Positions 44,257 through 63,757 of a stretch of 64,000 nucleotides of DNA are shown piece after piece. The notes beneath the pieces were generated by a model. It was not told the DNA's origin. It saw only the letters and a program-made list of their open reading frames with translations, and searched no databases. The stretch is from Rossellomorea orangium (lineage in GTDB: Bacteria > Bacillota > Bacilli > Bacillales > Bacillaceae_B): NCBI RefSeq assembly GCF_019334305.1, contig NZ_JAHWGH010000014.1, positions 372,001 to 436,000 on the forward strand. The letters run 5' to 3'. The position numbers and the translations under genes were made by a program. Position 1 is the stretch's first letter, and each line of letters starts with the position of its first letter.

Positions 44257-44283
44257 GGAGTTCTCCTTAACTAAAAAGTTTTC

Positions 44284-46548: not shown

Positions 46549-46586
46549 TAATGGGAGGGTAAAGAGATCATCTTTACCCTTAATAG

Positions 46587-47859: not shown

Positions 47860-47864
47860 TAAGA

Positions 47865-47898
47865 AAAAGGTATGAACAGCGTGCTGCTCATACCTTTT
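47865..47898. terminator. Bidirectional terminator
   Basis: AAAAGGTATGA and TCATACCTTTT arms between convergent genes. Confidence 0.85.
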
Positions 47899-47905
47899 CT
47901 TTATG

Positions 47906-49822
47906 TCATCCACTTTTCTCGCTTGTTTTCTTCTGTTCTTTTCTTTCGATAAGGCATTGATCAAAGTACTGTGTGAATTCCGATTCTCCTGAATACGACA
48001 GACATAAATACTCTTTCGCCCGTGTCATCCCGATATATAGAAGGGACACTTCTCTTTCCACGTCTTCCTCCAGTGCAAACGGCATATTATCCACATTCAC
48101 AATGAAGACCGCCTGAAAGTCGAGCCCTTTACTGCTGTCGATCGTACTGATTTTGACTCGGTTATCATCCTTCTCGAAGCTCCGCTTGGATTCACTATTT
48201 TCCGTTAACCAGAAGTAGTCAATCTGCTCTTTTTGAAGTTCGCGCTTTAGAGTGTCGATGTAGCTTGTGCTGAATGATTTCTTGATGCGGTATAGAATGA
48301 GCATTTCCGAGAACGGCACATGCTTCTCTTCGTTCAGCTTTTTAATTTGTCTGGCTACGAACCTTGCCTCCTGTTGGAAATCACCTTTCTTGATGATAGC
48401 AGGCTCGATTCCTTTTCTTCGTGTACTTTGCGGAGCGATGATTTCGCCTTCGAATTCCCTCGTAACCACTTTATTCTTTAACGAGGAATGCGTCTTATAG
48501 AAGTCCCATGCGAACTTAACCACTTGGGCAGTGTTCCGATAATTGATGCTTAACACTTTCGATCTTCCTTGGAAGCTGAGGCCCATGTCCTGCAGGTAAC
48601 TTCTTTTTCGTTTATAGATAGACTGAGCTCGGTCCTCTACTAATAGAAGAGACTTGGTTTCTGGGTTAAGAAGACCCGATACCAGTTCAAACCAGGAAGA
48701 TTCAAAGTCCTGTCCCTCATCAATCAGGATCGCATCATATGTAGGGAGAATCGCTTCCCCGTTTTTAATCTTTTCGAGCACGGTTGGCAGCTCTTTTTCC
48801 TTAATCTTGAGATCATTCTTTAGCCAAGAATGAAAGTTACGAACCGAGATATGATGCTTCTTCTCTTGGACATTTCCAGAGCCGGAGAAATCAAAGTCAA
48901 AGAGATTATCAGGCTCATTCATCATATGGAAGACAATCTGCTCAATGTTCCGGGCAAGGGAAATATTGTAGCAGAGAATAAGGATCTTCCAGTCCGGCTG
49001 CTCTTTAGCGAGTAGTTTCGCCCTGCTCGCAAGAATTAGCGTCTTCCCGCTCCCCGCGACTCCACGGATCAGCCGGTTCTTATCCCCAATCTGCTTCGCC
49101 AAGTTCTCCTGATGAAGATCCATCGCTTTAATATCATGTAGCGATAGCAACAGTTGATCCTGATACGGAACAGGCTGCTTGAACTCCGCACTGATTCGCA
49201 CCTCTGGAAACAAGTGATACCGAATCGCATCCATTTCTTCTTTTGAGAGAGGATTTTGTAACCGGTACGGAATCGTAAACATATTCACGATCTTCTCGAT
49301 TAAATTCTCTTCTGAGAAACCATCCTTCTCCGGATCAATCTCATCCCTCGTCAAACAGAAGGACGGTTCCACCACCGCATACAACCCATTCTCAATAAAA
49401 TCCTTCTGATGCAAACGGGTAAAAACCGCACCGAATCCATAAGGGAACTTCAGCTGAAATTGATATCGTCCCTCCAACTGAACAAGATTCTTATCCTTCT
49501 TCAACACATCCGCAATATGAAACACATAATCCCGTGCCTGCTTCAAAGGATTCTTCGTCTTCCTCTGCTCCCCAGAAGACGTATGTAAAATCCACTCATC
49601 ATGATTCAACTGCAACAACGTATTCTTCGTATAATCCTTAACCTCTAACACAACCAAACCCAAATCCGGCCCAATAATAACAAAGTCAGGCCGCTTCCCA
49701 TGAATCTCAGGTTCATAATACACAATATAATCATCTGGCAAATACGTCTTCAACGTACGAAACAACAACCTCTCCCCAGCCGTAGCCGACGATCGGATCG
49801 CTTCTGGTATGGTGTAAGCCAT
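47906..49822 (-). CDS. NERD-domain UvrD/Rep-type helicase
   Basis: The 638-aa protein has an N-terminal NERD nuclease-related domain (ERLLFRTLKTYLPDDYIVYY, RPDFVIIGPDLGLVVLEVKD). The SF1 helicase follows: Q-like start LHQENLAKQIG, Walker A GVAGSGKTLILA, Walker B AILIDEGQDFE, QRSI-like motif, SINYRNT, and TIDSSKGLDFQAVF. Fusion of a NERD nuclease and helicase is common in defence loci. The first about 300 bases of the coding strand are strongly G-rich. Confidence 0.93.
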   Translation of the reverse strand: MAYTIPEAIRSSATAGERLLFRTLKTYLPDDYIVYYEPEIHGKRPDFVIIGPDLGLVVLEVKDYTKNTLLQLNHDEWILHTSSGEQRKTKNPLKQARDYVFHIADVLKKDKNLVQLEGRYQFQLKFPYGFGAVFTRLHQKDFIENGLYAVVEPSFCLTRDEIDPEKDGFSEENLIEKIVNMFTIPYRLQNPLSKEEMDAIRYHLFPEVRISAEFKQPVPYQDQLLLSLHDIKAMDLHQENLAKQIGDKNRLIRGVAGSGKTLILASRAKLLAKEQPDWKILILCYNISLARNIEQIVFHMMNEPDNLFDFDFSGSGNVQEKKHHISVRNFHSWLKNDLKIKEKELPTVLEKIKNGEAILPTYDAILIDEGQDFESSWFELVSGLLNPETKSLLLVEDRAQSIYKRKRSYLQDMGLSFQGRSKVLSINYRNTAQVVKFAWDFYKTHSSLKNKVVTREFEGEIIAPQSTRRKGIEPAIIKKGDFQQEARFVARQIKKLNEEKHVPFSEMLILYRIKKSFSTSYIDTLKRELQKEQIDYFWLTENSESKRSFEKDDNRVKISTIDSSKGLDFQAVFIVNVDNMPFALEEDVEREVSLLYIGMTRAKEYLCLSYSGESEFTQYFDQCLIERKEQKKTSEKSG

Positions 49823-50190
49823 GTGAACACTCCAACTGTTTGTGATGGTTATATTATACTACAAAAGTTGTGGTGTTTTTACATTTAATGGTTTAGTTTT
49901 GTTTTTAGTTCACATTCAAACTAAGGGCTTATTTAAGTTTGCAAAGAGCCTTCATTCAGAAATATTCATCTGCATTTTCTCTACAATAACGAAGTGTAAT
50001 AAATAGTCACCACATTTTGAAAACTTTATCCATTGTATTACTGCATTACCAATTCTCAAAGGGACTAGATGTGTCAGTTCATAAAAGCAAAGCATTTTCA
50101 ATAAGGAATGCATTTCACTTAAATAAATACAACTCAAAAACATTTCAAAATAAGTTATTGACATTTCTAAAAATATCCATTAATCTAACA
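49823..50190. other. AT-rich spacer, nothing recognised
   Basis: About 370 bases between the helicase start and the TetR operator show no supported gene. Confidence 0.4.
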
Positions 50191-50210
50191 ATGTAAGTAA
50201 TTACTTGCAT
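50191..50210. promoter_or_regulatory. TetR operator candidate (autoregulation)
   Basis: ATGTAAGTAATTACTTGCAT is a palindrome with one mismatched pair, just upstream of the TetR start. The same core recurs before the permease gene. Confidence 0.65.
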
Positions 50211-50229
50211 GAAATGGAAGTTGATAATC

Positions 50230-50814
50230 ATGGACGAATCAAAAAATACATCTGAACGTATACTTAAAGCATTTACAGAATTATTTCGAAATTATGGTTA
50301 TAAAGGGGCAACCACGCGAGCCGTAGCACAAAAAGCAGGAGTTAATGAAGTAACCATTTTTCGTCACTTTGGAAATAAAAAAGGTATTATGGATGCACTT
50401 CTTCAATCCGTTTCTTTTAGTCCTAATTTAGAGAAAATCATTAGCGAAGAAATAAATTGGGATCTTGAACATGACTTGTGGATTATAGCTGAAAAATATC
50501 ATATGTATTTAGAGAAAGCAAAAGACTTAATTTTTATAGGTATTAGAGAGGCTGGCATATTTCCAGAGTTAAATGAATTAATAATGCAGATTCCTAAGCA
50601 ATTAAAGATGCTATTGGTTTCTTACTTTACTGAAATGAAAACAAGAGGAAAATTAATTAATACTGATGTCGACTTTCAAGCAATGAATTTTATATGGTTG
50701 AACTTTGGTTATTTCCTTTCTAAATCACAATTTGGTGATAATATTATTTCAAGTTCTGAAAAAAAGTTCATTAAACACAGTGTTGAGCTTTTTGCTAGGG
50801 GTTTAACCCCCTAG
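50230..50814 (+). CDS. TetR-family regulator
   Basis: The protein of about 194 aa has the TetR HTH TSERILKAFTELFRNYGYKG, then TTRAVAQKAGVNEVTIFRHF, and a C-terminal domain of hydrophobic helices. The ATG at 50230 was taken because GGAAG precedes it. An upstream ATG (50209) lies inside the operator. The gene ends inside its own terminator. Operators before it and before the next gene point to autoregulation plus control of the permease. Confidence 0.9.
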   Translation: MDESKNTSERILKAFTELFRNYGYKGATTRAVAQKAGVNEVTIFRHFGNKKGIMDALLQSVSFSPNLEKIISEEINWDLEHDLWIIAEKYHMYLEKAKDLIFIGIREAGIFPELNELIMQIPKQLKMLLVSYFTEMKTRGKLINTDVDFQAMNFIWLNFGYFLSKSQFGDNIISSSEKKFIKHSVELFARGLTP

Positions 50815-50820
50815 TTTTTT
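50795..50820 (+). terminator. Terminator overlapping TetR stop
   Basis: CTAGGGG/CCCCTAG hairpin followed by TTTTTT. The TAG stop is within the right arm. Confidence 0.85.
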
Positions 50821-50830
50821 ATCGAAAATT

Positions 50831-50848
50831 ATGCAAGTATGTACTTAC
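50831..50848. promoter_or_regulatory. TetR operator candidate before permease gene
   Basis: ATGCAAGTATGTACTTAC shares the AAGTA..TACTT core with the palindrome at 50191. Confidence 0.6.
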
Positions 50849-50867
50849 TTTAAAAGGAGAGATAACA

Positions 50868-52073
50868 ATGAAAACATTTAAACAATTTTTTAAAAATACC
50901 GAAACTTTAGTAGGAATAGCGACAGCTATTTCATTCTTGTTAATTTTCTTTTGTATTTGGATGACTGCATATAGTGGTGTTTCAGACCGTGTAGAAAAGT
51001 TAAGAATTGGAGTAGTAAATGAAGATGGATTAATTGGCTCAAAGATTGAGAAAGAATTAAAGAAAAGCGTTCCTTTTGAAATAAAACCTTACCAGTCTAT
51101 AACTAAGGCAAAGAAAGCTATGAATAAAAGAAATTTGGATATGGTAATATTTATCCCTGCCAACTTCTCTAATCAGTTACAGGGAGAAGGAAAAACAAAA
51201 ATAACGTATTTCATTAATCAAGCAAATGCCTCTATGGCAAAACAAATTATGGACAGTGCAGCACAAAATATAACCCAATCAGTTAACTCAAATGTTTATG
51301 CTTTTAAACAGCAACTTATCCTATCGACCATGCCTGGACAAATAAGTAAAGTTATACCAGACCAAAAAACAGCTCAAAACATATCAGGAGATATTTCAAA
51401 AGTCATACTTAATTTAAGTAATCAATTAGTTGATCCCTCCGTAGTAAAAACAAACAATACTAGTGGTTTTTCGGCTACTATGGTCCCTATGATGATAGTG
51501 TTAGCTTCTTTCGTGGGGTCCATGATTATGAGTCTAAACCTCAATACTGTATCAATAAGACTAAAAAATCATTTTAATAAATGGTCAATCTTTCTAACAA
51601 GACAAATTATTAACTTTGGTTCATCGATCCTTTTAGCTATTATTACATTACTTTTCTTAGCTATTTTCAATATAGAAATGACTACAACACTATTTGAGAC
51701 TGGCATATTTCAATTTTTGGTTTATTTTTCCTTTTTAAGCTTAACGCAAATGTTTATTATCTTATTTGGTCCTGGCGGTATGATTTTCAATATTATTTTC
51801 CTTTCATTACAGCTAGTAACCTCAGGAGTAATAGTTCCAAAAGAAATGTTATCAGGTTTTTATCATGCCGTAAGTTTCTATTTACCAGCAACGTATGTTG
51901 CTGATGGCTACTATACTGTAATTTTTGGGGGAGATACCCTTGCAAACAATATGTTAACATTATTCATTATTACAACAATTGTGTTATTTATCGCATTTGT
52001 AAGGGTTAGTTTTCAAGATAACCCAGGACTATTGAAAGGTAAGTCTCCTACTCAAGAGAACGTTTTGTCTTAG
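50868..52073 (+). CDS. ABC-2 type permease, YhgE/Pip-like
   Basis: The 401-aa protein has the ABC-2/Pip layout: TM1 near the N-terminus (about 15-35), a large extracytoplasmic region (about 40-200), then a cluster of five TM helices from about 210 (MVPMMIVLASFVGSMIMSLN) to the C-terminus. Such permeases export drugs or lipids with an ATPase encoded elsewhere. AAAGGAG precedes the ATG. The TetR operator upstream suggests drug-type induction. Convergent to the polyketide operon, it could export its product. Confidence 0.85.
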   Translation: MKTFKQFFKNTETLVGIATAISFLLIFFCIWMTAYSGVSDRVEKLRIGVVNEDGLIGSKIEKELKKSVPFEIKPYQSITKAKKAMNKRNLDMVIFIPANFSNQLQGEGKTKITYFINQANASMAKQIMDSAAQNITQSVNSNVYAFKQQLILSTMPGQISKVIPDQKTAQNISGDISKVILNLSNQLVDPSVVKTNNTSGFSATMVPMMIVLASFVGSMIMSLNLNTVSIRLKNHFNKWSIFLTRQIINFGSSILLAIITLLFLAIFNIEMTTTLFETGIFQFLVYFSFLSLTQMFIILFGPGGMIFNIIFLSLQLVTSGVIVPKEMLSGFYHAVSFYLPATYVADGYYTVIFGGDTLANNMLTLFIITTIVLFIAFVRVSFQDNPGLLKGKSPTQENVLS

Positions 52074-52185
52074 TCTTAGTAAGAATTAACTATATGATCA
52101 TTGTTTTTTTGTGAATTAATTAAAATGGACTATAGATTATTAGCACTTAAAAGTAGATTCCTAGAATTAATTATTTTTAAAGTTT

Positions 52186-52214
52186 AAAAAAAGTGTCCTA
52201 ATTGGACACTTTTT
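52186..52214. terminator. Bidirectional terminator
   Basis: AAAAAGTGTCC/GGACACTTTTT hairpin between permease and polyketide operon ends. Confidence 0.88.
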
Positions 52215-52220
52215 GGGACC

Positions 52221-53408
52221 TTATTCAAATTGGTTTTTCTTAATTAAAATGCTTATACTTTGATTGTGATAATCTTTTCCGTTTATAACAATTGACTCAA
52301 CAGAACTAGCTTGATCTTTATTTACGTAACTCGTTATATACTTAGATTCAGCAAAATTAGGATCTTCAAAAGTAGATAAAAGTTCCTGATGTTTCAGCAT
52401 AAGGCAGGCAGTGGCGATATCCAGGGGAATTGAAGCGGATAATAAGTTACCTAAGAATTTCTTAGATGTTCCCACTGGTATTTTTCTAATAGATGCAAAA
52501 GTATTTCCTAGGACTTCTTCTAAATCATCTATTTCTTTTCGATCCTCAGTAATATTTCCACTAGCATTTAAGAAGATATAATCTATGTCCGTGCTTATAT
52601 CATCGATTAAATTTTGAAAGGTACTTTTCGTACTAGACCCGACCTTAACGCTCTCAATTTCTGCTATTATTTCTGCTCCACGTGATTTAGCATATTCGTA
52701 TTCCTCTAATATTAAAACTATAGCACCCTCTCCTATAATCTGACCATTAGCTTGTGAAGTAAATGGATTGTATTCACCATTTTCCGAAAGTCTACCACTT
52801 GAGAGTAATGCATTATACACTAGAGGTGTAAGAGGGGCCTCAGATGCTCCCACTAAGGCTCCTTTTAACTTCCCACTTTTAATAATATGTAATGCATGAT
52901 TTATAGCATACCCGCCACTTAACGAATCTGCCGAGATAGTTTTACTATAACCGAGAATATTATGTTTTATAGATATTTCTCCCTGAGGGGCTGTCGGGAA
53001 CCAGGAAGTGGCAACATATGAATTTAATTTTGTGAGGTCTTTTTTATACAAATCATAAAGTTGAGGTTCTACATATGACCAGCCTCCTGTACAATTTCCA
53101 AGAATTATTCCTATGTCTTTCGCACAATCATCATTAATGATTAAATTGGCATCTTGCATTGCTTTTTCAGCAGCAATTAAAGCCATGCTTGAAAACTTAT
53201 CTATCTTTTTCAGGTTTCTTTTAGGGATTAAATTTTGAATTAACTCATCAGAAACCTTTGATACAACTTGCTCTTCATCTGAATCTAGGTATAATTTTTC
53301 CCTAGAAAAGTGGGAGATCCCTTCATTCATATCCTTCCATAAATCTCTATATTCTAAACCGCTTGCTGTCACAGTTCCTATACCAGTGATAACAACTCTA
53401 TTACTCAT
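52221..53408 (-). CDS. Type II PKS chain-length factor (KS-beta)
   Basis: The 395-aa ketosynthase homologue has the overall KS fold (VVITGIGTVTASGLEYRDLW; QANGQIIGEGAIVLILEEYE), but the active-site Cys is replaced by Ser162 in SADSLSGGYAI. The two catalytic His loops are lost (NASGNI replaces the HGSST loop). Catalytically dead KS partners of this kind are the chain-length factors of type II PKS, paired with an active KS. It follows KS-alpha by 15 bases in the operon. The chain length it would set cannot be predicted by eye. Confidence 0.88.
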   Translation of the reverse strand: MSNRVVITGIGTVTASGLEYRDLWKDMNEGISHFSREKLYLDSDEEQVVSKVSDELIQNLIPKRNLKKIDKFSSMALIAAEKAMQDANLIINDDCAKDIGIILGNCTGGWSYVEPQLYDLYKKDLTKLNSYVATSWFPTAPQGEISIKHNILGYSKTISADSLSGGYAINHALHIIKSGKLKGALVGASEAPLTPLVYNALLSSGRLSENGEYNPFTSQANGQIIGEGAIVLILEEYEYAKSRGAEIIAEIESVKVGSSTKSTFQNLIDDISTDIDYIFLNASGNITEDRKEIDDLEEVLGNTFASIRKIPVGTSKKFLGNLLSASIPLDIATACLMLKHQELLSTFEDPNFAESKYITSYVNKDQASSVESIVINGKDYHNQSISILIKKNQFE

Positions 53409-53423
53409 GTATGCTCTCCCCCT

Positions 53424-54701
53424 TTACTCTGAATATTTTCCAATAATTAAACTTGAGTGAATACCAGAAAAACCACTACTAATCTTCAAAACATACTCCA
53501 CAGGATATTGAAGTTTTGTATTCCCTACTACCCATAAATCTATCGCTGGGTCTTTTTCTACTAGGTTAATAGTTGGTGGGATAATCCCTTCTTGAATACT
53601 TTTTATACTACTAACAATCTCTATACTGTTAGATGCAGCCAAAGGATGGCCAATTTGGGATTTGACAGAAGTAACAGGTATTTGTTCAGTTCTATCTTCA
53701 AAAATTGAAAATAGGGCTTGGTTTTCGGCACGATCATTTTGAGGCGTAGATGAGCCATGCATGTTAACAAAGTTAATTGCTTCCTTGGGTATTCCTGAAT
53801 CCTCTAATGCAAGTTCTATTGAATTCGCAATTGAAATTCCATCTTGAGGAATATCAGTCATATGTTGTGCGTTATTACAGCTACCAAATCCAAATACTTC
53901 TGCTAAAATTGTAGCACCCCTTTTCTTAGCGTGAGTTAAAGACTCCACAACTAGGATTCCACATCCCTCTGCTAGCACAAAACCATCACGGTCTTTATCA
54001 AATGGCCTAGAAGCTCTTTCTGGGCAATCATTCTTTTTTCGAGAAGTCGCTTTAATTTTATTAAACGCTGCAACAGGCAGAGGAGTGATTGGTGCTTCCG
54101 TAGCACCAGTCAGAGCTACATCAATTTCTCCTGATCGAATTGCTTCTAGTGCATAGCCAAGTGCATCAATGCCCCCTGTACACCCTGTAGTAATAACTGC
54201 GTTTCCCCCGGAAAAATTATATTTTTCAGCCAATGTTCTGCTAATTGTATTAAATTGGAACCAATCATAGACTGGATCATTTGAATTAGAAGTTAAAGGC
54301 AGGCTTGTCTCACCTGATTTAGTACCTTTTCTAAAAGTCTGTTCCATATTACCTATGCCACCAATAGCATTGGCTATATAAACTCCCCTTTTATCTGGAT
54401 TATTTTCCTTAGAATAATCCAATCCAGACATGGCTATCGCTTCTTTAGTGGCCGCTAAAGCAAAGAGGACACTTCTGTCATATTTTTCAATCTCTTCTTG
54501 TTTCAATCCAACACTTTCTGGTTTAAAGCAATCAGCAATGCCTGCAATTGCACTTAGATTACAAGGTATTTCAAAGTCCGTTATTTCTCTAACCCCAGAC
54601 ATCCCTCGTATATGGTTATACCAGAACCTCTCCAAATTTTCCCCGATAGGTGTTACAACTGACATTCCAGTTACTACTACCCGTTCTCTTTTCATTTCCA
54701 T
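53424..54701 (-). CDS. Type II PKS ketosynthase (KS-alpha)
   Basis: The protein of about 425 aa has the KS catalytic set: Cys174 in TTGCTGGIDALGYA, His315 in VNMHGSSTPQNDRAENQ, Lys347 and His352 in SVKSQIGHPLAASNS. The GSSTPQND loop is like type II PKS KS-alpha rather than FabF. Counting assumes the ATG at 54701, which has GGAG 6 bases upstream. It pairs with KS-beta to elongate malonyl units on the ACP. Malonyl loading would have to come from the host FabD since no AT gene is present. Confidence 0.9.
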   Translation of the reverse strand: MEMKRERVVVTGMSVVTPIGENLERFWYNHIRGMSGVREITDFEIPCNLSAIAGIADCFKPESVGLKQEEIEKYDRSVLFALAATKEAIAMSGLDYSKENNPDKRGVYIANAIGGIGNMEQTFRKGTKSGETSLPLTSNSNDPVYDWFQFNTISRTLAEKYNFSGGNAVITTGCTGGIDALGYALEAIRSGEIDVALTGATEAPITPLPVAAFNKIKATSRKKNDCPERASRPFDKDRDGFVLAEGCGILVVESLTHAKKRGATILAEVFGFGSCNNAQHMTDIPQDGISIANSIELALEDSGIPKEAINFVNMHGSSTPQNDRAENQALFSIFEDRTEQIPVTSVKSQIGHPLAASNSIEIVSSIKSIQEGIIPPTINLVEKDPAIDLWVVGNTKLQYPVEYVLKISSGFSGIHSSLIIGKYSE

Positions 54702-54720
54702 GTAGCACTCCTTCACTTAC

Positions 54721-55473
54721 TTATTCCATATTAGCGACAACGCGAGCCCAACCTGCTCCGCAATTTTTCACCTTGATTGGGAAACAAGATACTTTAAACC
54801 CGAATGGAACTGGTACTTTATCTAAATTACATAACCGTTCTATCTGACAATATTCTTTTTGTCTACCATAAACATGAGCTGGCCATAATACTTCGGTAGA
54901 GTTAGTCCGTTCAAATTCATCTAACATTTTATGAAATGGAGGATCAAAACCAAAGCTATCAATTCCTATTATTTTAACCCCTTGTTTAACTATCCAGTTT
55001 GTTGCTTCTTTTGTTACTCCTCTAAAGTCAGTGAAATATTCTTTTGTTCCCCAAAGCTTATCAGCTCCAGTATTAATGAAGACAATATCCCCTGGTTTAA
55101 TTGTATATCCCACTTTATATAAATAATCTACAATTTCTTGTTTAGTAACTGGTCCATCACTTTTACTTTTGGCGTCGATTATTAGACCGTCCCCGTAACA
55201 CCATTCAAGCGGGACTTCTTCAATAGTCTTAGCTCTTGCTCCTTCGCACAGTGGACCATAATGTGATGGGGCATCAAGATGAGTTCCCGAGTGGCTTGTA
55301 ATTTTTATGCGCTCATGGGATAGTGCCATACCATCAGGGAAATCTTCTTTTTTTAAGTTTTTATCAGCTCCAAGAATTTCTGCACCTTGTTCATGAGAAA
55401 TATATTCTATCTCAACTGGTTCTGGTTCACTTGTAGATGTTTCAATTGTCAAGCTAAGGTCGATTATCTTCAA
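54721..55473 (-). CDS. PF04199-type putative cyclase/metal hydrolase
   Basis: The protein of about 250 aa belongs to the cyclase family (kynurenine formamidase fold). It has the metal motif HSGTHLDAPSHYG near residue 63 and a C-terminal PAHVYGR segment. Members occur in type II PKS pathways as late-acting cyclases, and otherwise as hydrolases. The start is TTG 55473, with GAGGTG 7 bases upstream. It lies 19 bases before KS-alpha. In this context ring closure of the polyketide is the best guess. Confidence 0.82.
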   Translation of the reverse strand: MKIIDLSLTIETSTSEPEPVEIEYISHEQGAEILGADKNLKKEDFPDGMALSHERIKITSHSGTHLDAPSHYGPLCEGARAKTIEEVPLEWCYGDGLIIDAKSKSDGPVTKQEIVDYLYKVGYTIKPGDIVFINTGADKLWGTKEYFTDFRGVTKEATNWIVKQGVKIIGIDSFGFDPPFHKMLDEFERTNSTEVLWPAHVYGRQKEYCQIERLCNLDKVPVPFGFKVSCFPIKVKNCGAGWARVVANME

Positions 55474-55531
55474 TTTCAAGCACCTCTAAACTGCTCCCTT
55501 TCTATTAAAGAAAAGGAGCACTAAATTATAT

Positions 55532-56428
55532 TTAATTCATTGCTTTGGCAAATGAGTTTAAAATTTTGTTTATTCGCTCCTCAAGTTTTTCTCTATAGTC
55601 AGTAACACGCTTTTTATACTCAACTAATTCTTCATCTGGTCCTCTTTTAAGCGTAAAACCCCGTTTTGCTTCTACGGTTGTTTTATCAGTACCATCATGT
55701 CCTGACAGTAACCAAGCACCCACATGATAGTTCAATAAACGAGGAGGCTCTGGGCTAAAGAAATGAATCCCCTCGTCCTCTGCGTACCGAATAGTTCTAA
55801 CATTTTCTTTGGCGCCATCTCTCCATACAGTCATAGCAAATTCTTGATGGACTTGATCATCATAAATGACGGTCACATTATCAATTTTATTCCAATATGA
55901 ATTCCACTTTTTTATATCCCAAAAAATTTCAAATAAACTGTGCTTATTTTCATTTAGCTCAATAGATAGGGTAATTTCCTGATAAAGTTCCAGATAATTT
56001 TTAAAGCAGGTAAGGTTTTGGTTTAGAAATCTCTTAAGATTTTTTGTAAATCTAATTTCAGCTAAATGAAGTTCTTCATCTGTCATATTTTCATTAACCA
56101 ACTCAACCGTTCTTGTAGCTGTTACCTCTGTAGTACTCCCTTTGTTTATAAACTTCCATTCTCCTACCATACTTTTAACTCCCGGAGGGGGGATTGGTTG
56201 AGTTAATTCTATACTTTCATATTTTTTGCAAATCCTTTTGGAATGAACAGTTTCAGGACCAGTTGGCCTTGAAACTGTCATTAAAAACTCTTGATAGACC
56301 CCATCATCTTCAATTTCATTAATTTCCAACACGTCTGGAAGAACTTTTTTCCATTTATGAATATCAGCATAAGCACCATATACTTCTTCAATTGGCGCAT
56401 TAATAATAATCGTTTGCTGAATAATCAT
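55532..56428 (-). CDS. Di-domain SRPBCC aromatase/cyclase
   Basis: The protein of about 298 aa has two SRPBCC repeats. Repeat 1 begins IIQQTIIINAPIEEVYGAYA and has ELTQPIPPPGVKSMVGEW. Repeat 2 begins about residue 150 (ITLSIELNENKHSLFEIFWD) and has FFSPEPPRLLNYHVGAW. This is the architecture of di-domain aromatase/cyclases of type II PKS pathways, which fold and dehydrate the first ring. The start overlaps the ACP-cyclase stop by 4 bases (ATGA), so both are translated together. Confidence 0.87.
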   Translation of the reverse strand: MIIQQTIIINAPIEEVYGAYADIHKWKKVLPDVLEINEIEDDGVYQEFLMTVSRPTGPETVHSKRICKKYESIELTQPIPPPGVKSMVGEWKFINKGSTTEVTATRTVELVNENMTDEELHLAEIRFTKNLKRFLNQNLTCFKNYLELYQEITLSIELNENKHSLFEIFWDIKKWNSYWNKIDNVTVIYDDQVHQEFAMTVWRDGAKENVRTIRYAEDEGIHFFSPEPPRLLNYHVGAWLLSGHDGTDKTTVEAKRGFTLKRGPDEELVEYKKRVTDYREKLEERINKILNSFAKAMN

Positions 56429-57132
56429 GATGAAACAACTTCTTTTGAAAATATGTTTTTCCACAAACGTAAAGAGGCTTGTGCATGTTCAAATAGTTTA
56501 TCTTCGATTGCTCTTGGTAAGTTCTCTAAAGTAATGTTAGGGAAAAACTCTTTTGCACCTTCTTCAGAGATGTTCCAATTGTGTACTAATGTACCTTCGG
56601 TCATACCATTTTCGAGTTGTTTTAACACCCAGCAACCCCCGTGGTGTTTTAAATACTTTGGTGGAACGGGCTGAAAAAACTCAATAACATTTTCTCGCAA
56701 CCTCCGAATGGAACGAACTTTGACTGGGTTTCCATCTGTGTCAACCGTCATATAAAATTCTTGGTTTGCACCATCATCATATAAAACCTCAATCTTTTTA
56801 ATATGAGGAAGCAATTCCTCCCAGTGTTCCAACTTCCAAAGTGCATCTAAAAAATCACTAGCTGAAGTTGGTAATACTACAGTGTCAGTGCGCCGATAAT
56901 TGAAAGGGGACTTTTTTTGTTCTATTAAACTCAAAACTTCTTGCACAGTAGAGTCACGCGTAATTTCCCCGTCTTTTAAATAGACATTATGTTGTTCTTC
57001 AATTTCACATGTAAGTTCAACAATTTCTTGAGAATCCATTTCTAATTCTTCACCAAGTGTTTGCCCTAACTGAATATCTTCAATTCCAATTCCCATTCCT
57101 TCTAATAAACTTTTAAAAATTTTAATATTCAT
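56425..57132 (-). CDS. Acyl carrier protein fused to an aromatase/cyclase domain
   Basis: The 235-aa fusion has residues 1-75 as an ACP, with the phosphopantetheine Ser34 in ELEMDSQEIVEL and helix III ending DSTVQEVLSLIEQ. Residues about 80-228 are a SRPBCC domain (VVLPTSASDFLDALWKLEHW, EFFQPVPPKYLKHHGG) like the one in the next gene. Type II PKS ACPs are normally stand-alone, so the ACP-cyclase fusion is unusual. AAAGGAG precedes the ATG. It is the only ACP in the operon. Confidence 0.87.
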   Translation of the reverse strand: MNIKIFKSLLEGMGIGIEDIQLGQTLGEELEMDSQEIVELTCEIEEQHNVYLKDGEITRDSTVQEVLSLIEQKKSPFNYRRTDTVVLPTSASDFLDALWKLEHWEELLPHIKKIEVLYDDGANQEFYMTVDTDGNPVKVRSIRRLRENVIEFFQPVPPKYLKHHGGCWVLKQLENGMTEGTLVHNWNISEEGAKEFFPNITLENLPRAIEDKLFEHAQASLRLWKNIFSKEVVSS

Positions 57133-57171
57133 ATTAATTCTCCTTTTATAATTTGATTATTCCGAAAACTA

Positions 57172-58425
57172 TTAAGCTAGCTCAGTCTCTTTGCTTTTAA
57201 CTGGGTCATGGTCGGCTAATAAATGACAACCGGCTAAACCTGAAATAAGAAAGATAAAATCCTCTCTATCTGTTAATTTCCTCCATGGGTCCACAAGAGT
57301 TTGAGCCTTTTTAAAATAAGATGTTCTATCAAGACTAGCATCATAAAAATAATGTACGAAGGAAATGACTTTTTCTAAGAATGTCTTATACGCTGCTTCG
57401 TAGCGATATAAATATTCATTCTCGTTTAAGGGATCATCTAGAGCTGAATTAATAAGCTTTGCTGATAAACTTCCAGCATTCATAGCAAGGAAAACACCAG
57501 AGGAGAATAGTGGATCAATAAATCCAGCAGCATCTCCTGCTAGTACATAACCAGGTCCATAAAACTGTTTTGAAACATATGACCAATCTTTTGCAGTTCG
57601 AACGGAATCTACTTGCCTAGCATTTTTAATACGGCGTTTAGTTTCTATACTATTAGATAATACCTCTCTAAATTTTTGTTCAAGGTTGAGATTACCTTTT
57701 TCTTTTGTCCAGTTTCCATTAGATACCCAACCTATGCTAGTCTTTCCATTTGCTAATGGTATAACCCATATCCATCCATCCGTTGTATTTTCAGTTAATA
57801 TGTTTCCAGCTGCGCGATGTTCATATTGCTCAACATCTTCAAAATAACTCCAAACTGCTATGTTTTTTAATTTTTCATCGTATTCTATTAACTTGTTTTT
57901 TCTTGCCAATAATGTAGCTTGTCCAGAAGCATCAATTATATATTTGGCATGAACGATGTATTCTTCTCCATTTGGTTTTCTGTAACGTACCCCTGTGCAT
58001 CGTCCATCTATTTCAATAAATTCAATAACCTGATGTCCTTCTAAAACTGTTGCACCTTTTTCTCTGGCGTTATTTAAAAGAATTTGATCAAATTTACTTC
58101 TCTCTACTTGAAAAGCATAATCATATTCCCCCCCATCTGGACCAGTTTCTCCAAAGTAAATATGCCAAGGGTCAATTGTATTTCCCCATAATAGAGTGAC
58201 ACCATATTTTTGAATAAAATCATCTCTTTTTACCTTATCGTAAATTTCAAGCTCTTTAAGAATTGGAATTATACCTGTCACAAGAGACTCACCAATCTTA
58301 TATCTTGGAAATACCTCTTTTTCTATCACCAAAACATCTTTTCCATTCTTAGCCAATAGCGCAGATGCTGTAGCTCCTGCTGGCCCTCCACCAACTACGA
58401 TTACGTCATAATATAACTTATTCAT
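57172..58425 (-). CDS. Flavin-dependent halogenase-like/oxidoreductase
   Basis: This 417-aa FAD enzyme has GGGPAGATASALLAKNGKDVL (FAD site) from residue 11, PRYKIGESL, QKYGVTLLWG with the Lys common to carrier-protein or phenolic halogenases, the tryptophan pair motif GWIWVIPLANGKTSIGW and the halogenase Fx.Px.SxG signature GFIDPLFSSGVFLAM. These favour a halogenase acting on a polyketide ring. A hydroxylase of the same fold is the main alternative. The start overlaps the methyltransferase stop (ATGA). Confidence 0.85.
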   Translation of the reverse strand: MNKLYYDVIVVGGGPAGATASALLAKNGKDVLVIEKEVFPRYKIGESLVTGIIPILKELEIYDKVKRDDFIQKYGVTLLWGNTIDPWHIYFGETGPDGGEYDYAFQVERSKFDQILLNNAREKGATVLEGHQVIEFIEIDGRCTGVRYRKPNGEEYIVHAKYIIDASGQATLLARKNKLIEYDEKLKNIAVWSYFEDVEQYEHRAAGNILTENTTDGWIWVIPLANGKTSIGWVSNGNWTKEKGNLNLEQKFREVLSNSIETKRRIKNARQVDSVRTAKDWSYVSKQFYGPGYVLAGDAAGFIDPLFSSGVFLAMNAGSLSAKLINSALDDPLNENEYLYRYEAAYKTFLEKVISFVHYFYDASLDRTSYFKKAQTLVDPWRKLTDREDFIFLISGLAGCHLLADHDPVKSKETELA

Positions 58426-59492
58426 TGAAACTCACCTTTTTCTGCAAAAATTAGGTTACTTGGACCAGTAATATGCTGTAACGATACATTCAGAAATTTA
58501 GATCCGTTCAGTAAATTACTATACTCATCTATTGTATAGGCATGTCCTGTACCAACTAAAAACGCTTCTACACCAAATAACAAAGGAAAAATATTTCTTG
58601 AATTTCTGTCTTCTACTATGAATTCATTAATAATTAGCTTTCCGCCTTTTTTTAAAGCCAGATAGCATTTCTCTAATAGCTTTTTATTTTCTATTTCACT
58701 GAACCCATGTAATATATGACTAAGTATTAAAAAATCATATTGCTCTATTCCATAATCAACTTCGAAAATATCGCCACTTACATATTGAATCTGCCTGTCC
58801 ACATTCATACGCCTTGCCTGTTCCTCAGCAATACTCAATACGTTCTTTCTATCAATTCCGACAACATTTGCATTTGCATTATGGACAGCGATCAATTGTC
58901 CATATATTCCGGATCCACATCCAACATCTAAGATATTAAATGGAGTAGTAATATTGTCTAAATGTAAGAGTCTTCTTATTTCTTCTACTACAGGTCTAGA
59001 AATTGAATTTAAATAAGGGACAACAACTTCCCATACTTTATTCATTTCATTACCAAATAGTTTATTAGCAGGATTGCCACTAACAATTGACTCACCTAAT
59101 TTTGACCAAACAGGGAAATTTAGATCTTTATGAACCTTCCAAATCCCTCCAATATAATGTTCGCTATCAGTCCTAAGGTAAGCACTAAATTCATTTGATA
59201 CATAATAGTACTTATCATCACATGTTAAAATTTCTAATCCTACTAATGCATCTAACAGCACTTTTAAGCCAGTGGCATTATACTCACTAGATTTTACAAT
59301 TGAAGTGATATCTGCCTTTCCCTCTTCGAAAAAGTCGAAAATTCTCAACTCTAAAGCAGCTACATATACACCAGCTTCTTGTAATCCCCAAGAAATTTTA
59401 AATAGTTTGTTTAATTCTTTATTTTTGTTATAATAATCTTGTATATTGTTTTTTTTATTGTTGGGGATAGTGTAATCATATCCATTTACCAT
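58422..59492 (-). CDS. SAM-dependent O-methyltransferase
   Basis: The 356-aa protein has an N-terminal winged-helix dimerisation domain (IFDFFEEGKADITSIVKSSE, LKVLLDALVGLEIL) and a C-terminal class I methyltransferase with ILDVGCGSGIYGQLIA, then VVGIDRK and GKLIINEFIVED. This is the layout of O-methyltransferases that act on aromatic polyketides. AAGGAG precedes the start. It is coupled to the halogenase-like gene. Confidence 0.9.
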   Translation of the reverse strand: MVNGYDYTIPNNKKNNIQDYYNKNKELNKLFKISWGLQEAGVYVAALELRIFDFFEEGKADITSIVKSSEYNATGLKVLLDALVGLEILTCDDKYYYVSNEFSAYLRTDSEHYIGGIWKVHKDLNFPVWSKLGESIVSGNPANKLFGNEMNKVWEVVVPYLNSISRPVVEEIRRLLHLDNITTPFNILDVGCGSGIYGQLIAVHNANANVVGIDRKNVLSIAEEQARRMNVDRQIQYVSGDIFEVDYGIEQYDFLILSHILHGFSEIENKKLLEKCYLALKKGGKLIINEFIVEDRNSRNIFPLLFGVEAFLVGTGHAYTIDEYSNLLNGSKFLNVSLQHITGPSNLIFAEKGEFQ

Positions 59493-59571
59493 TCATTATC
59501 TCCTTATTTTTTGACTTAAATGAGAGTTCGACATTTTATTTTTTTAACCACCTCCTTAAAAGTTTTCCGTT

Positions 59572-60465
59572 TTATTTAAACAGACTCCTTGCTCTCAAAT
59601 AATGAGCCCAGTATCCCACCATACTCTTATATTTTTTAGAGATTTCTGTAAGGCATAAATCTCCATAAAGAGATTTGACTTCCTTTTGTAGCATTTTTTC
59701 ACCAACTGGTAATTTTTCCATCCTCCCTATGCCTCGAAGCATTATAAAGGATGACGACCATTCTCCAATGCCATTTATCTTTTGAAGCCACTCATTAACT
59801 TTTTCATAATCTGAATAAATTAGAAACTCGTCTTCTATATCTGCAAAAGCATTTGCAGCAGATAGTAAATAATTGGTTTTACGAGAATTTCCAAGAAGTG
59901 ATTGAACTTTATCCTCAGATGAATTTAGTATATGAAGTGGCTCAGGAAATGAAGTATATTCTTGTTGCTTAACTCTTATAGATTTTCCATAAGTTTTTGC
60001 TAATTGATTCATCAAATATTTTGCTTTCCTTTGAGGGGTTCTTTGAGATAGAATAGCCCAACACGCATTTTCAAATGGCGTTAAAAACTTTACTTGATGA
60101 TACCCATATAGGTTCTCAATAATTGGATAAAAGGCAGAGTCGTTCTTTGCATCCTTATAAAATTGGTCTAATTCATCTTCTAAGCTAAGGTAGAGCTTGA
60201 TTCTGTTAATAACTTTCTCTTCAAGTTTTTCCGAGATTTCTGAATCTGAATATAACTTATAATTAACTTGAGGAGTTGCGATGTCTCCTTTACCAACTAA
60301 GTTAAATAATACAATTTGATCATCTATACTGGTTGCTTTAATAAGTGAACGACTATTAACAGACTTTTCTTCTTTTGAAGGAGGGAATCGATTAATAAAC
60401 GTTAAGGACTTTTCAAAATCGTAAGGCGCTTTTGGATAAAGTACCCCTTCTTTTTTATTTACCAA
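59572..60465 (-). CDS. HhH-GPD DNA glycosylase (AlkA-like), altered catalytic position
   Basis: The protein of about 297 aa has the HhH-GPD core NACWAILSQRTPQRKAKYLM, then the hairpin LQKINGIGEWSSSFIMLRGI. At the position of the catalytic Asp in AlkA (LPTDLG) it reads LPVGEKML, so the usual Asp is missing. The start is TTG 60465, with AAGGAGG 8 bases upstream. Its place in the polyketide operon suggests self-protection against a DNA-damaging product, as known for other genotoxin clusters, but this is inference. Confidence 0.82.
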   Translation of the reverse strand: MVNKKEGVLYPKAPYDFEKSLTFINRFPPSKEEKSVNSRSLIKATSIDDQIVLFNLVGKGDIATPQVNYKLYSDSEISEKLEEKVINRIKLYLSLEDELDQFYKDAKNDSAFYPIIENLYGYHQVKFLTPFENACWAILSQRTPQRKAKYLMNQLAKTYGKSIRVKQQEYTSFPEPLHILNSSEDKVQSLLGNSRKTNYLLSAANAFADIEDEFLIYSDYEKVNEWLQKINGIGEWSSSFIMLRGIGRMEKLPVGEKMLQKEVKSLYGDLCLTEISKKYKSMVGYWAHYLRARSLFK

Positions 60466-60539
60466 ATTAACTACCTCCTTCTTGACCAATATAATAATTT
60501 TATTACGTAGGTAGAGACGCCTCCCTACCTACAAATTTT

Positions 60540-60929
60540 TTAACAACTACAGTTAGTAGTTTTCTCCGTACTTAGTGGTTCTTGAGGGAAATTCATTTTT
60601 TCCCAAGCCGCAATCCCTCCTGTTAGTTCTTGAACATCTTCAAAACCATTCTCCAATAATTTCACTGCTACTTTTGATGCTGTATTACACCATACATCCC
60701 AACAATAAACCACTACCTTTTTGTCTTTAGGAATCTCATTCAAACGGCTTTCGATTTCAACTTGCGGAATGACGACTGCTCCGTCAATTTTATTTTTCCT
60801 TGCTTCAACGGGACCGTTGCGAACATCTATTAAAACAGAATCTTCAGGAAATTTCTTTTTCATTTGTATATAATCCATAGGGCTTAGAGTTGCTTCAATT
60901 CGAGATTTAAAATAATCTAATCTATTCAT
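60540..60929 (-). CDS. Rhodanese-domain protein
   Basis: The 129-aa single-domain sulfurtransferase has the LIDVRNGPVEARKNKIDGAV start and the active-site loop VVYCWDVWCNTASKVA. A Cys is at the usual catalytic position, and a second Cys lies five residues on. The C-terminal tail CSC is unusual. It is 23 bases after the MarR gene. The role in the operon is unclear, perhaps sulfide or persulfide handling. Confidence 0.87.
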   Translation of the reverse strand: MNRLDYFKSRIEATLSPMDYIQMKKKFPEDSVLIDVRNGPVEARKNKIDGAVVIPQVEIESRLNEIPKDKKVVVYCWDVWCNTASKVAVKLLENGFEDVQELTGGIAAWEKMNFPQEPLSTEKTTNCSC

Positions 60930-60952
60930 TTTTATTCCTCCATTTAATTAAT

Positions 60953-61465
60953 TTAAATAAAACTAGTGATACCTTTTCTCATTTTACTTAAGAGTTCAAA
61001 AAAAGTTTTACGTTCCTCTGGTGATAAAGAACTAACTAGTCCAGCTGTTTTATTATAATGATTAGGTAGCATACCTTCTAAAACTCCTAGTCCTTCTTTA
61101 GTTAAAAAAACAGCTTGCTTTCTGCGATCATCAGGGTGAATCGAACGTTTTACAAAGCCATCTTTTGATAATCCATCAATAAGACCAGTTATAGTAGCTT
61201 TGGTTACATTAGCACTTTTCGCTAATTCTGAAGGGGTAATTGGACTCTCAAATTCACGATATAGTAGCATCATTAAAGTGAACTTCCCTTCAGAAAGACC
61301 GTAGTGTGAAAAATGTTTTCCATAGGCAGCGTTTACTTCTTTGGCGGTTTTTAAAAAATTTAATGTTAATAGCACGCCCTCTACATCTACATTCGGAAAT
61401 TTTTCAGAATAGCTAGATAATATCTCAGGTGTGGGTAGGTCTTTTAGATTAAAATCTAGATACAG
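60953..61465 (-). CDS. MarR-family regulator
   Basis: This MarR protein has the winged HTH SPITPSELAKSANVTKATITG, then GLIDGLSKDGFVKRSIHPDDR, with the wing RKQAVFLTKEG. The start is unusual. A perfect AAAGGAGGT lies 7 bases before a CTG at 61465, whereas the in-frame GTG abuts it and the promoter excludes longer starts. It is first gene of the polyketide operon. The operator overlaps the promoter, so it should be an autorepressor relieved by a ligand. Confidence 0.87.
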   Translation of the reverse strand: MYLDFNLKDLPTPEILSSYSEKFPNVDVEGVLLTLNFLKTAKEVNAAYGKHFSHYGLSEGKFTLMMLLYREFESPITPSELAKSANVTKATITGLIDGLSKDGFVKRSIHPDDRRKQAVFLTKEGLGVLEGMLPNHYNKTAGLVSSLSPEERKTFFELLSKMRKGITSFI

Positions 61466-61488
61466 TTGTTCCACCTCCTTTTTAGTAT

Positions 61489-61525
61489 GCCACCTTATTA
61501 TAAGGCGGCTAACTAAAAAAGTAAA
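61489..61525 (-). promoter_or_regulatory. Promoter and MarR operator of the polyketide operon
   Basis: On the minus strand TTTACT (61520-61525), a 17-base spacer and TATAAT (61497-61502) form a good SigA promoter. The -10 box lies within the palindrome GCCACCTTATTATAAGGCGGC (61489-61509), which has one mismatched pair in its two 10-base arms. Binding of a MarR dimer here would block the promoter. Confidence 0.75.
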
Positions 61526-62071
61526 CACAATTAGAAAAAAATGTATTTTTTAACACCTAGTATTATATTCTAATTTCCAAATATATATATATAAGTTCAT
61601 AAAGTATGCACAAGTTTTTACATATATTCAAATAATTGTATTTTTTTGTCGTTATCTTGTATTATAGATTAATTTATTTTTTTATGAACTCTTATATACA
61701 AAAATGAGCCAAAAGTACCCCTTTTTATATATGCAAAACAAAACTAATTAAATACATATTCTACCAAATAATTACGAAATCAAGGCGTTAAGTATGTGTT
61801 TTTTGTATAAAATTAACATTTATTTAAAATATTTTACTTTTAATATCAAAATTTTATATTAATTAGCTTAATTACATTTAGTTCCTAACAACCTTAGCAA
61901 AAAGTTAGAGAAAACTTCTCCCATTATCTTAAATGTACTACTGACATTTTTACAAAAATAAGCACTAAACCCCATTCTTATCGTGGTTTAGTGCTTATTT
62001 TTCTATAATAGCATATATCCAACTTTGGAAAGGGTCTACTACTTTGTTTTTTGCTAACTAAGAGCTATCCC
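61526..62071. other. AT-rich spacer with bidirectional terminator
   Basis: No gene is seen. A hairpin at 61961-61997 (AAGCACTAAACC/GGTTTAGTGCTT with flanking A and T runs) is a bidirectional terminator. The stretch around 61555-61860 is very AT-rich. Confidence 0.5.
61961..61997. terminator. Bidirectional terminator
   Basis: 12-bp arms AAGCACTAAACC/GGTTTAGTGCTT. On the minus strand it could end the HEAT-like gene. Confidence 0.8.
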
Positions 62072-63757
62072 CTACTCCTCAATATAAGGCTGTTCCCTCA
62101 AATGCCCCGTCTGCTCAACCAACACATAATAAAACTCACCATACTCCACCCAGCGCATCGGAAACTTCATCGTGATAACATTCTCTTTGTTATAAACACT
62201 AATCTGTTTCTTATCATACGTTACCTTCTTAATTTCCTGAAGAGGAATGCTCTCTTTCTTCTCACCCTTCACCTTCATTAATTTCCTGCCCACAATGACG
62301 ACAGCACTCCGCTTTTTCTTCCATAGTTCATAGACGGTAAGAATCCCTCCAAGGAGAGTGAAGCCAACGGAGATGTAAATCTCGGTTTCGGTGATGCCGT
62401 TAATGAAGACCCTGATCCAGTGTGAAATCAGGATGGCATAGAAGAACCACAGACCTTTGGAGAGGCTTGGTGAGCTCTCGTAGTAGACGGTCTCTTCATT
62501 TTCACGTGCGTATTCTTCCCGTTTTTTCAAGAAGAGCTGTTTGTGCTCTTCGACGGTTCTGTTCTGTATTGGTTCGAGGTCGGTGTGGGTGCCTTCCCAC
62601 ATGTGCGCACTGTCATCCTCCTCCTCAAGGCCATATCCTCCCACCCATGCAGCGAGTACCTCGTCCCCATGGGAGAAGCTCATCAGATAATAGCGCAGCG
62701 GCTGACCGTATGAGTTCACGGTGTCGACGGAATCGACGACCTCGATGTTTTCCGGAAAGATATTGAGATCCTCTCCTTCTTCATCCTGCAAATGGACCAG
62801 ATGGTTAAAGAGATGTGCCTTTGCAAGCACCGGCTGCTTTGGACTGACAGGGAAGAGATGCTCTTTATTATGTTCCGCGAGCCCCCAGTACATCAACTCG
62901 GCACTTTCGACATGATTGGAAAGCGATCGGAGCATGTCCGGTTGAACCGGGATATTCTTATTCATCGCGACCACTACCGCATTCGTGCAGATGCGTGGAT
63001 CCTTGAACGAAACGGCCTCCTTCAGAAAACCCTCTGCCTCCTCGGAGTAATAGAAGTTCATCAACCCGATCAACACATTGATACGGTACCTCAGCCGGAA
63101 GTACGACTCTTTCCACGATTGATACGCATAGTTGGACCGATATTCCTTGTCATAATTCAGATACTCGTCCCGAAGCTTCGCATAATCAGCCAACAGCACC
63201 GGAAGCACCTTCGCCCTCTTGTACCCTGCCTCCACTCCCGACTCAATGATCGCCGTGATGAAGTCATAATACATATATTTATAATAAGGGGATTCCAACT
63301 GATCGATCGTCTTATCCACAATCGCCCTCAACATCACCGGAAACTCACACAGCTCCTCCACCGGCAGCACGACTTCCTCATGTGTAACCAACTGCACCGT
63401 CTTGTCATGAATCTCCTGAAAGATCCCCTCATCCTTCGTCAGCAGCAAACACTCAAGAGCCCGCACCTTCGCATCCGGATCAAACCCATCAAAGCGCAGC
63501 AGAATCTCATCAATAATCTCAGGCATCGGATAGTCACACACAAACTCTACCAACCCAAGGGAAGGATTATCCCACACATCCACCCGCTCAGGAAACGTTG
63601 AAGCCGCCTCCTTCACCATATCCTTCAACATCTCCACCCGGATCTTCAGATCATCATGCCCCTTCAACTCATACAACGTTCCAAGCGCCTCATACCGCGT
63701 CCCCGGATCCGTGCTGTGCAGCTGTTTTACCAAACTTCTCATTTTTATCTCGTTCAT
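62072..63757 (-). CDS. HEAT-repeat-like protein with C-terminal membrane segment
   Basis: The 561-aa protein has helical repeats over about 400 residues (LVKQLHSTDPGTRYEALGTL, EILLRFDGFDPDAKVRALEC). Two TM helices follow near residue 445-490 (GLWFFYAILISHWIRVFING; EIYISVGFTLLGGILTVYEL), and a C-terminal about 70-residue beta-rich PH-like domain. I know no named family. AAGAAGGGG precedes the ATG. The 5' third of the coding strand is G-rich. Confidence 0.75.
   Translation of the reverse strand: MNEIKMRSLVKQLHSTDPGTRYEALGTLYELKGHDDLKIRVEMLKDMVKEAASTFPERVDVWDNPSLGLVEFVCDYPMPEIIDEILLRFDGFDPDAKVRALECLLLTKDEGIFQEIHDKTVQLVTHEEVVLPVEELCEFPVMLRAIVDKTIDQLESPYYKYMYYDFITAIIESGVEAGYKRAKVLPVLLADYAKLRDEYLNYDKEYRSNYAYQSWKESYFRLRYRINVLIGLMNFYYSEEAEGFLKEAVSFKDPRICTNAVVVAMNKNIPVQPDMLRSLSNHVESAELMYWGLAEHNKEHLFPVSPKQPVLAKAHLFNHLVHLQDEEGEDLNIFPENIEVVDSVDTVNSYGQPLRYYLMSFSHGDEVLAAWVGGYGLEEEDDSAHMWEGTHTDLEPIQNRTVEEHKQLFLKKREEYARENEETVYYESSPSLSKGLWFFYAILISHWIRVFINGITETEIYISVGFTLLGGILTVYELWKKKRSAVVIVGRKLMKVKGEKKESIPLQEIKKVTYDKKQISVYNKENVITMKFPMRWVEYGEFYYVLVEQTGHLREQPYIEE

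Follow-up and report, generated by a model that had tools for sequence, protein, structure and literature searches.

The window analyzed here is a stretch of 64,000 nucleotides from Rossellomorea orangium (contig NZ_JAHWGH010000014.1, positions 372,001 to 436,000). On its minus strand, between positions 52221 and 61528, lies one tightly packed array of ten open reading frames (ORFs), a compact 9.3-kb operon that, judging from its sequence, is very likely a complete type II polyketide synthase (PKS) cluster of a rare, apparently uncharacterized class, set in a chromosomal region that varies among relatives and probably gained by horizontal transfer. Its predicted product is most likely an unreduced, O-methylated, and perhaps halogenated aromatic polyketide. 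We found seven loci of this class (the window, a Staphylococcus haemolyticus plasmid, one Nostoc, and four Chlamydiota); all share an orthologous set of three SRPBCC domains, a PF04199 cyclase, a ketosynthase (KSalpha), and a chain length factor (CLF).

The initial annotation had described a compact type II PKS operon, and this description holds: the ten ORFs are co-directional, the expected families are present, and the gaps from MarR to CLF measure 23, 50, 79, -4, 39, -40, 52, 4, and 15 bases. The parts it named are borne out, including the PF04199 cyclase and the O-methyltransferase, although its gene list omits the HhH-GPD and rhodanese genes; likewise, the acyl carrier protein (ACP) and three SRPBCC domains that it listed are all present by fold and trees, but the ACP and one SRPBCC domain form a single gene. 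In reading order, the genes are as follows:

60953..61528, minus strand: MarR-family regulator, probable start ~20 codons inside the ORF (Pfam, 1.7e-13; homologues)
60540..60929, minus strand: rhodanese-domain protein, candidate stress gene (Pfam, 1e-13; homologue)
59572..60489, minus strand: HhH-GPD (AlkA/OGG-like) protein, candidate self-protection gene (Pfam, 7.4e-7; phmmer; alignment)
58422..59492, minus strand: O-methyltransferase, Methyltransf_2 with dimerization domain (Pfam, 1e-18; homologue)
57172..58425, minus strand: flavin-dependent halogenase-type enzyme, predicted, with CndH/CmlS/8ZOP relatives (Pfam Trp_halogenase, 2.6e-41; alignment; tree)
56425..57132, minus strand: ACP (LEMDSQE) fused to SRPBCC aromatase/cyclase domain D1 (Pfam; NCBIfam; tree; predicted fold)
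55532..56464, minus strand: two-domain SRPBCC aromatase/cyclase, D2 plus D3 (Pfam Polyketide_cyc, 1.7e-11; phmmer; domain tree; predicted fold)
54721..55479, minus strand: PF04199 cyclase, kynurenine-formamidase-like (Pfam, 3.7e-33; homologues; tree)
53424..54716, minus strand: KSalpha, likely start at internal Met 8 (Pfam; tree; approximately unbiased [AU] test)
52221..53408, minus strand: CLF (KSbeta), 395 aa (Pfam; tree; Ser at the Cys column; CLF-only motif)

The MarR, two-domain SRPBCC, and KSalpha genes probably start 7 to 24 codons inside their longest ORFs, because homologues begin aligning there; for the two-domain SRPBCC gene, the likely start at internal Met 13 leaves an overlap of ~4 bases with the preceding gene.

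Both KS genes match the Pfam ketoacyl-synt family (E values of 8.7e-29 and 2.9e-42), and, as the initial annotation had it, they pair an active enzyme with a Cys-less partner: KSalpha has a complete tetrad (C179/H320/K352/H357), and the CLF carries Ser in place of Cys at the active-site column of the alignment. In a 45-row tree, 19 type II PKS KS proteins stand apart from eight FabFs (support, 100/99), and the window KSalpha falls inside a 7-member clade (100/99) with those of S. haemolyticus (its sister, 100/99), Nostoc, and the four Chlamydiota. The seven CLFs likewise form one group (100/100) in a tree with long branches for S. haemolyticus, Photorhabdus AntE, and S. saccharolyticus. A motif confined to CLFs (GNxxGGWxxxE..ATxWFPxxxQG) is present in 16 of 18 CLF rows, including the window CLF and AntE, and in none of 27 KS/FabF rows; both Streptomyces CLFs in the alignment lack it. 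A Gln that we take to be an actinobacterial CLF mark occurs in one of these two Streptomyces proteins and is missing from the window CLF, as it is from AntE (which has Asp). The S. haemolyticus CLF measures 325 aa as annotated, and what it carries at the final three columns of the tetrad cannot be read reliably.

Grouping of the KS proteins with FabF, named beforehand in the initial annotation as the outcome that would speak against it, was looked for and not found: the AU test rejects, under the model used, a tree in which the window KS is held with the FabFs (p 8.9e-73). Holding the whole seven-locus class with the FabFs is likewise rejected (p 0.011); a clade that unites the class with three actinobacterial KS proteins survives the test (p 0.052). 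For this test, groups B and C were defined once the tree had been seen. The proposal of a KSalpha clade outside the Actinobacteria thus agrees with the placement in the tree, although the AU test leaves room for a clade shared with actinobacterial KS proteins.

That both KS genes are FabF paralogues serving a special fatty acid is scarcely credible. KSalpha does score 385.6 bits against the FabF model TIGR03150 (under its cut-off of 493.75), which is a point against the PKS assignment; set against it are the CLF motif, the conserved cyclase set, and a separate fabF in the same genome, and the tree and AU test rule out a FabF-paralogue identity for the window KS. The best relative of KSalpha in the PDB is Photorhabdus AntD, at 304.7 bits, versus 282.5 bits for the best FabF. 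Compared as DNA with the plasmid collection, the fabF of the genome comes closest to sequences from Listeria and Staphylococcus (68-70%), in keeping with Bacilli, and one window gene compared with plasmids has no near match there.

The ACP retains its phosphopantetheine Ser (in MDSQE), matches NCBIfam ACP models with E values down to 3.7e-8, and shows ACP-like helices in its predicted fold. Pfam detects the SRPBCC domains unevenly: the ACP-linked domain D1 matches with an E value of 0.005, below cut-off, and the second half of the two-domain gene has no Pfam match of its own. We therefore checked these domains by predicted fold and by a domain tree. AlphaFold models reach a mean pLDDT of 81.2 for the ACP-SRPBCC protein and 82.7 for the two-domain protein (from input alignments of 6 and 9 rows), and the top PDB fold matches of both are ZhuI and BexL, followed closely by StfQ and TcmN; plant proteins of the Bet v 1 type, which share this fold, also match. 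By phmmer, the two-domain protein matches BexL (8.4e-9). Across the seven loci, the domain tree resolves three clades of seven (97/94, 97/92, and 100/99). Going by these models and trees, the weakly detected SRPBCC domains are genuine, and, given three orthologous clades, an ancestral trio D1-D2-D3 appears to have been kept while fusions changed: the ACP is joined to D1 in the window and the Chlamydiota, and D2 to D3 in the window and S. haemolyticus.

A type II PKS-like pathway could also lead to a nonaromatic or short product (compare polyenes and cispentacin), with the SRPBCC domains binding or processing something else. Type II PKS-like enzymes for nonaromatic products exist (PMC10698177), and other-class Bacillota loci with KS-CLF pairs have different partner genes. 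We nonetheless find this alternative improbable: three aromatase/cyclase-fold domains are kept in all seven loci, family scans find no ketoreductase, dehydratase, acyltransferase, or phosphopantetheinyl transferase (PPTase) among the ten operon genes (the initial annotation had already reported the lack of ketoreductase, acyltransferase, and PPTase), and no SDR match occurs among 20 neighbors scanned at the Nostoc locus (L024) and one Chlamydiota locus (L025).

The class is thinly distributed. A KSalpha pattern scan of GTDB genome contigs yielded four loci, in Nostoc sp. PA-18-2419 and three Chlamydiota metagenome-assembled genomes (L025 to L027), all of which bring together an ACP, three SRPBCC domains, a flavoenzyme, PF04199, KSalpha, CLF, and a gene resembling radical SAM genes in size or family. 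The radical SAM genes of L024 and L025 are HutW/HemN-like by family scan; that of L058 was matched to the Nostoc gene, and those of L026 and L027 were recognized by place and size. Neither the ten operon genes of the window nor the S. haemolyticus stretch, with its 24 annotated features, includes a radical SAM gene. A CLF profile (A1) built from the window and L024 to L027, which these five match by construction, found one further Chlamydiota locus (G822) anew. In samples centered on genomes already known to carry the cluster, the profile matches 4 of 190 Chlamydiota genomes (three of them profile sources), and 1 of 339 cyanobacterial genomes holds a class member (Nostoc itself), plus two loci of another class. 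In three overlapping samples of Bacillota drawn around the window's genome, only the window's genome has the cluster (1/398 for the phylum, 1/397 for the order, and 1/398 for the class): the next CLF-profile match in the phylum sample scores 212.5 bits versus 611 for the window's genome, and the second matches, G1249 and G1419, belong to other classes. The cluster is also absent from the 60 relatives of the window's genome that were examined, and none of 55 pattern-matching stretches in viral contigs encodes a relative. In the Nostoc locus (L024:12641-16325), the cluster is followed by three glutathione S-transferase-like genes and an O-methyltransferase, perhaps with tailoring or detoxifying roles.

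The seventh locus emerged from a tblastn search of KSalpha against 72,556 plasmid records: the S. haemolyticus Dog117_H plasmid NZ_CP120084.1 encodes a KS of 53% identity (next best plasmid KS, 45%) and homologues of all ten window genes in a different order. Identities are 35% for CLF, 62.5% for PF04199, 38% for the two-domain SRPBCC protein, 47% for D1, 41% for ACP, 54% for the flavoenzyme, 34% for the methyltransferase, 42% for HhH, 52% for rhodanese, and 41% for MarR. The plasmid copy also has a VOC gene, with IS6 transposase and recombinase genes close by. The kind of system had been recognized correctly from the start, but the initial annotation had missed HhH/rhodanese/MarR as part of the cassette, and also that Staphylococcus, Nostoc, and Chlamydiota have this gene set.

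Within its chromosome, the operon is, on comparison with relatives, one insert in a variable locus. Counting the window's own genome, 13 of the 36 genomes of the genus have the right-hand neighbor (62072-63757); seven fetched neighbor regions of relatives contain no operon genes, the site being occupied by other genes. In genome G006, homologues of 42971-43351 and 40890-42830 (93 and 95%) lie ~4 kb from the right-hand neighbor versus ~19 kb in the window. The operon genes have G+C contents of 0.32 to 0.38 and third-position G+C contents (GC3) of 0.21 to 0.27; the 11 other window genes have a pooled GC3 of 0.49.

Beyond the FabF-model score, several observations weigh against this overall assignment. 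Two of the 11 other window genes are equally low in GC3 (0.22 and 0.25), such that low G+C is only suggestive of acquisition. The PP-binding match of the ACP (7.4e-4; 20.2 bits) is slightly below the Pfam cut-off of 20.8. D2 of the window groups with Nostoc (86/80) rather than with S. haemolyticus, and in the PF04199 tree the class is not one clean clade: an Enterococcus faecium PF04199 protein (the 14 features displayed at its locus include no PKS gene) falls inside, and Nostoc pairs with a Crinalium enzyme adjoining a type I PKS. The PF04199 gene may therefore have moved separately. The Crinalium epipsammum plasmid itself (L094:8632-24744) combines PF04199, a type I PKS, and two aromatase/cyclase-like genes; its PF04199 protein is 59% identical, but the adjoining PKS is of type I, and we rejected the plasmid as a class member. 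Cyclases of the PF04199/SRPBCC kind may also serve type I PKS systems.

We take a catalytic Lys, WxWxIP, and FxxPxxSxG to be marks of the flavin-dependent halogenase family. The flavoenzyme of the window has all three (K73, WIWVIP at 218-223, and FIDPLFSSG at 302-310), with K73 aligning to K76 of 3E1T, so that the halogenase-like character assigned to it earlier is well founded as a prediction. In the flavoenzyme tree, the window and S. haemolyticus enzymes are placed near CndH and 8ZOP (no paper on the latter structure was found in a literature search of mostly open-access content); the Nostoc and Chlamydiota flavoenzymes are without WxWxIP and form their own clade (97/94).

Besides this halogenase-type enzyme and the methyltransferase, the window and S. 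haemolyticus share HhH, rhodanese, and MarR genes. Membership of the HhH protein in the HhH-GPD family follows from Pfam (29.9 bits versus a cut-off of 26.2) and from phmmer matches to AlkA-type chains (best E value, 3.3e-6). At the position of the Asp that is presumably catalytic in AlkA-like proteins, the window, S. haemolyticus, and G003 (a genome of the same genus) have Glu, which makes base excision by this protein uncertain; an S. saprophyticus relative and 2H56 have Asp, and a Deinococcus relative is ambiguous. A Gly at this position was ruled out, as the 2H56 alignment puts Glu there. HhH accompanies the PKS in the window and S. haemolyticus and is absent from the matches listed at the other five loci. 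On a plasmid of Deinococcus sp. KNUC1210 (L073:7603-8882), a VOC gene directly precedes an HhH gene (38% to that of the window), behind a YafY-type regulator.

MarR-rhodanese-HhH could be a stress operon native to the genus that just happens to lie upstream, the cluster then comprising the seven genes from methyltransferase to CLF. In G003, these three genes, identically ordered, occur without a PKS (71/76/55% identity; no biosynthetic core gene among the eight neighbors of the trio scanned), and the 79-base gap directly follows the trio. Yet relatives of the window MarR at E values of ≤1e-30 occur in just 2 of 36 genus genomes, the trio is as low in GC3 as the PKS genes, and the S. haemolyticus plasmid has all three genes with the PKS in another order, HhH adjoining the methyltransferase. 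We regard a resident operon as a real but unlikely possibility; because the plasmid has homologues of all ten genes, differently arranged, the trio is probably part of the cassette; most simply, the cluster would have taken it up as a portable module for protection.

Self-resistance offers a candidate role. Trioxacarcin and LL-D49194 clusters contain DNA glycosylases for this purpose (TxnU2/U4 and LldU1/U5, HTH_42 proteins with demonstrated repair activity, according to PMC8934636). The window resembles them in having a DNA-glycosylase-type gene within an aromatic polyketide cluster and differs in that its protein belongs to the HhH-GPD family, has Glu where Asp is expected, and has only putative activity. 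A speculative scenario, of which we are doubtful, is that a distinct, mobile type II PKS class is shared by Bacillota, a cyanobacterium, and Chlamydiota, and that its Bacillota branch gained the halogenase, methyltransferase, and MarR-rhodanese-HhH (plus VOC in Staphylococcus) because its product either attacks DNA or is a quinone of electrophilic character, HhH being a new kind of lesion-binding or base-excising self-resistance protein.

Two convergent left neighbors, with G+C as low as that of the operon genes, could contribute export functions:

50209..50814, plus strand: TetR-family regulator, candidate export control (family match, low G+C)
50868..52073, plus strand: YhgE/Pip-type ABC-2 membrane protein, candidate exporter (family match, low G+C)

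Farther left (36454-49822) are defense-like genes, namely one resembling type II restriction enzymes, two helicase genes (one of the Schlafen group, one NERD-UvrD), and one of the GIY-YIG/T5orf172 type. A 24-nt inverted repeat (61948-62008; 92% complementary, 13 nt apart) separates the operon from the gene that ends at 62072 and is perhaps the terminator of that gene. The single MarR-controlled promoter proposed in the initial annotation finds no support: 49800-62100 contains 41 promoter-like sites versus 50.9 +/- 7.5 in shuffles, and terminator-like sites at the locus show no excess over shuffles.

Supply enzymes would come from the host. PF00698 (FabD-type) and PF01648 each match one protein in the genome. 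Borrowing of FabD is plausible, as suggested, but Sfp-type activation is rejected, the sole PF01648 match being a protein of 128 aa of the AcpS type. Limited success of Sfp with ACPs of nonactinomycete type II PKSs (PMC11744666) fits the use of AcpS. In the proposed pathway, AcpS would arm the ACP and FabD would supply malonyl-ACP; KSalpha/CLF, from family function and in an operon without ketoreductase, would build an unreduced poly-beta-keto chain on the ACP, which the three SRPBCC domains (one ACP-tethered, two in one protein) and PF04199 would fold and aromatize. The flavoenzyme may then halogenate or hydroxylate the product and the methyltransferase may O-methylate it, with MarR, rhodanese, and HhH, by their co-occurrence, as a putative response and protection module against it.

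Type II PKSs outside the Actinobacteria are little characterized. The conserved parts that define this class are three orthologous aromatase/cyclase domains, PF04199, and an unusual CLF, and its members come from three phyla, among them Chlamydia-like bacteria and, on a plasmid, a staphylococcus. What seems new, judging from literature searches that mostly gave listings, is the recognition of the class, the three-cyclase architecture across three phyla, the ten-gene plasmid copy, and the HhH/rhodanese/MarR module. Among the papers listed for type II PKSs with Chlamydiae, Staphylococcus, or L. gasseri, no title points to this class, a weak indication given that few subscription papers were covered. 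As the operon is compact, its chemistry and the idea of HhH self-resistance are directly testable.

Type II PKSs are already known in Bacillota: published examples are clostrubin and wexrubicin (PMC11747023), a KS/CLF of Streptococcus sp. GMD2S (PMC6638757), and a type II PKS ACP of Paenibacillus sp. FSL R7-277 (PMC11744666). Our KS/CLF tree is without clostrubin, wexrubicin, Streptococcus GMD2S, and Paenibacillus rows. A catalogue (PMC10132072) lists Firmicutes among 14 phyla with KS-CLF pairs, so class members may stand unnamed in such lists. A separate kind of cluster (KS-CLF-ACP-methyltransferase-ligase-cupin-PF04199-SRPBCC) occurs on plasmids of Priestia, S. saccharolyticus, L. gasseri, and A. 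kunkeei, in G1419, and in two cyanobacteria (L056, L057, L071, L072, L097, L059, and L060). By annotation or BLAST, it resembles the window in its KS/CLF pair, PF04199 cyclase, and SRPBCC protein, but its KS is ~36 to 38% identical and in another clade (100/99), it has ligase and cupin genes, and its SRPBCC proteins (three rows in the tree) form another clade. A second, different type II PKS locus from the same taxonomic order, at ~9 to 17 kb of L061 (G1249:C16:6001-26000), has two methyltransferase-like genes, a 560-aa halogenase (40% to that of the window), PF04199, KS, CLF, and SRPBCC.

The closest KS of solved structure belongs to the ant PKS of Photorhabdus luminescens (AntD/AntE, PDB 6SMO), whose CLF shares the CLF-only motif of the window; identities are 39.5% for KS and 28.5% for CLF. 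In PMC6638757, the AntH cyclase/aromatase is described as tridomain, on which description it resembles the three SRPBCC domains of the window, and the pathway is described with a ketoreductase, AntA, which has no counterpart among the ten genes. Unlike ant, the window adds a halogenase-type enzyme, a methyltransferase, and MarR/rhodanese/HhH.

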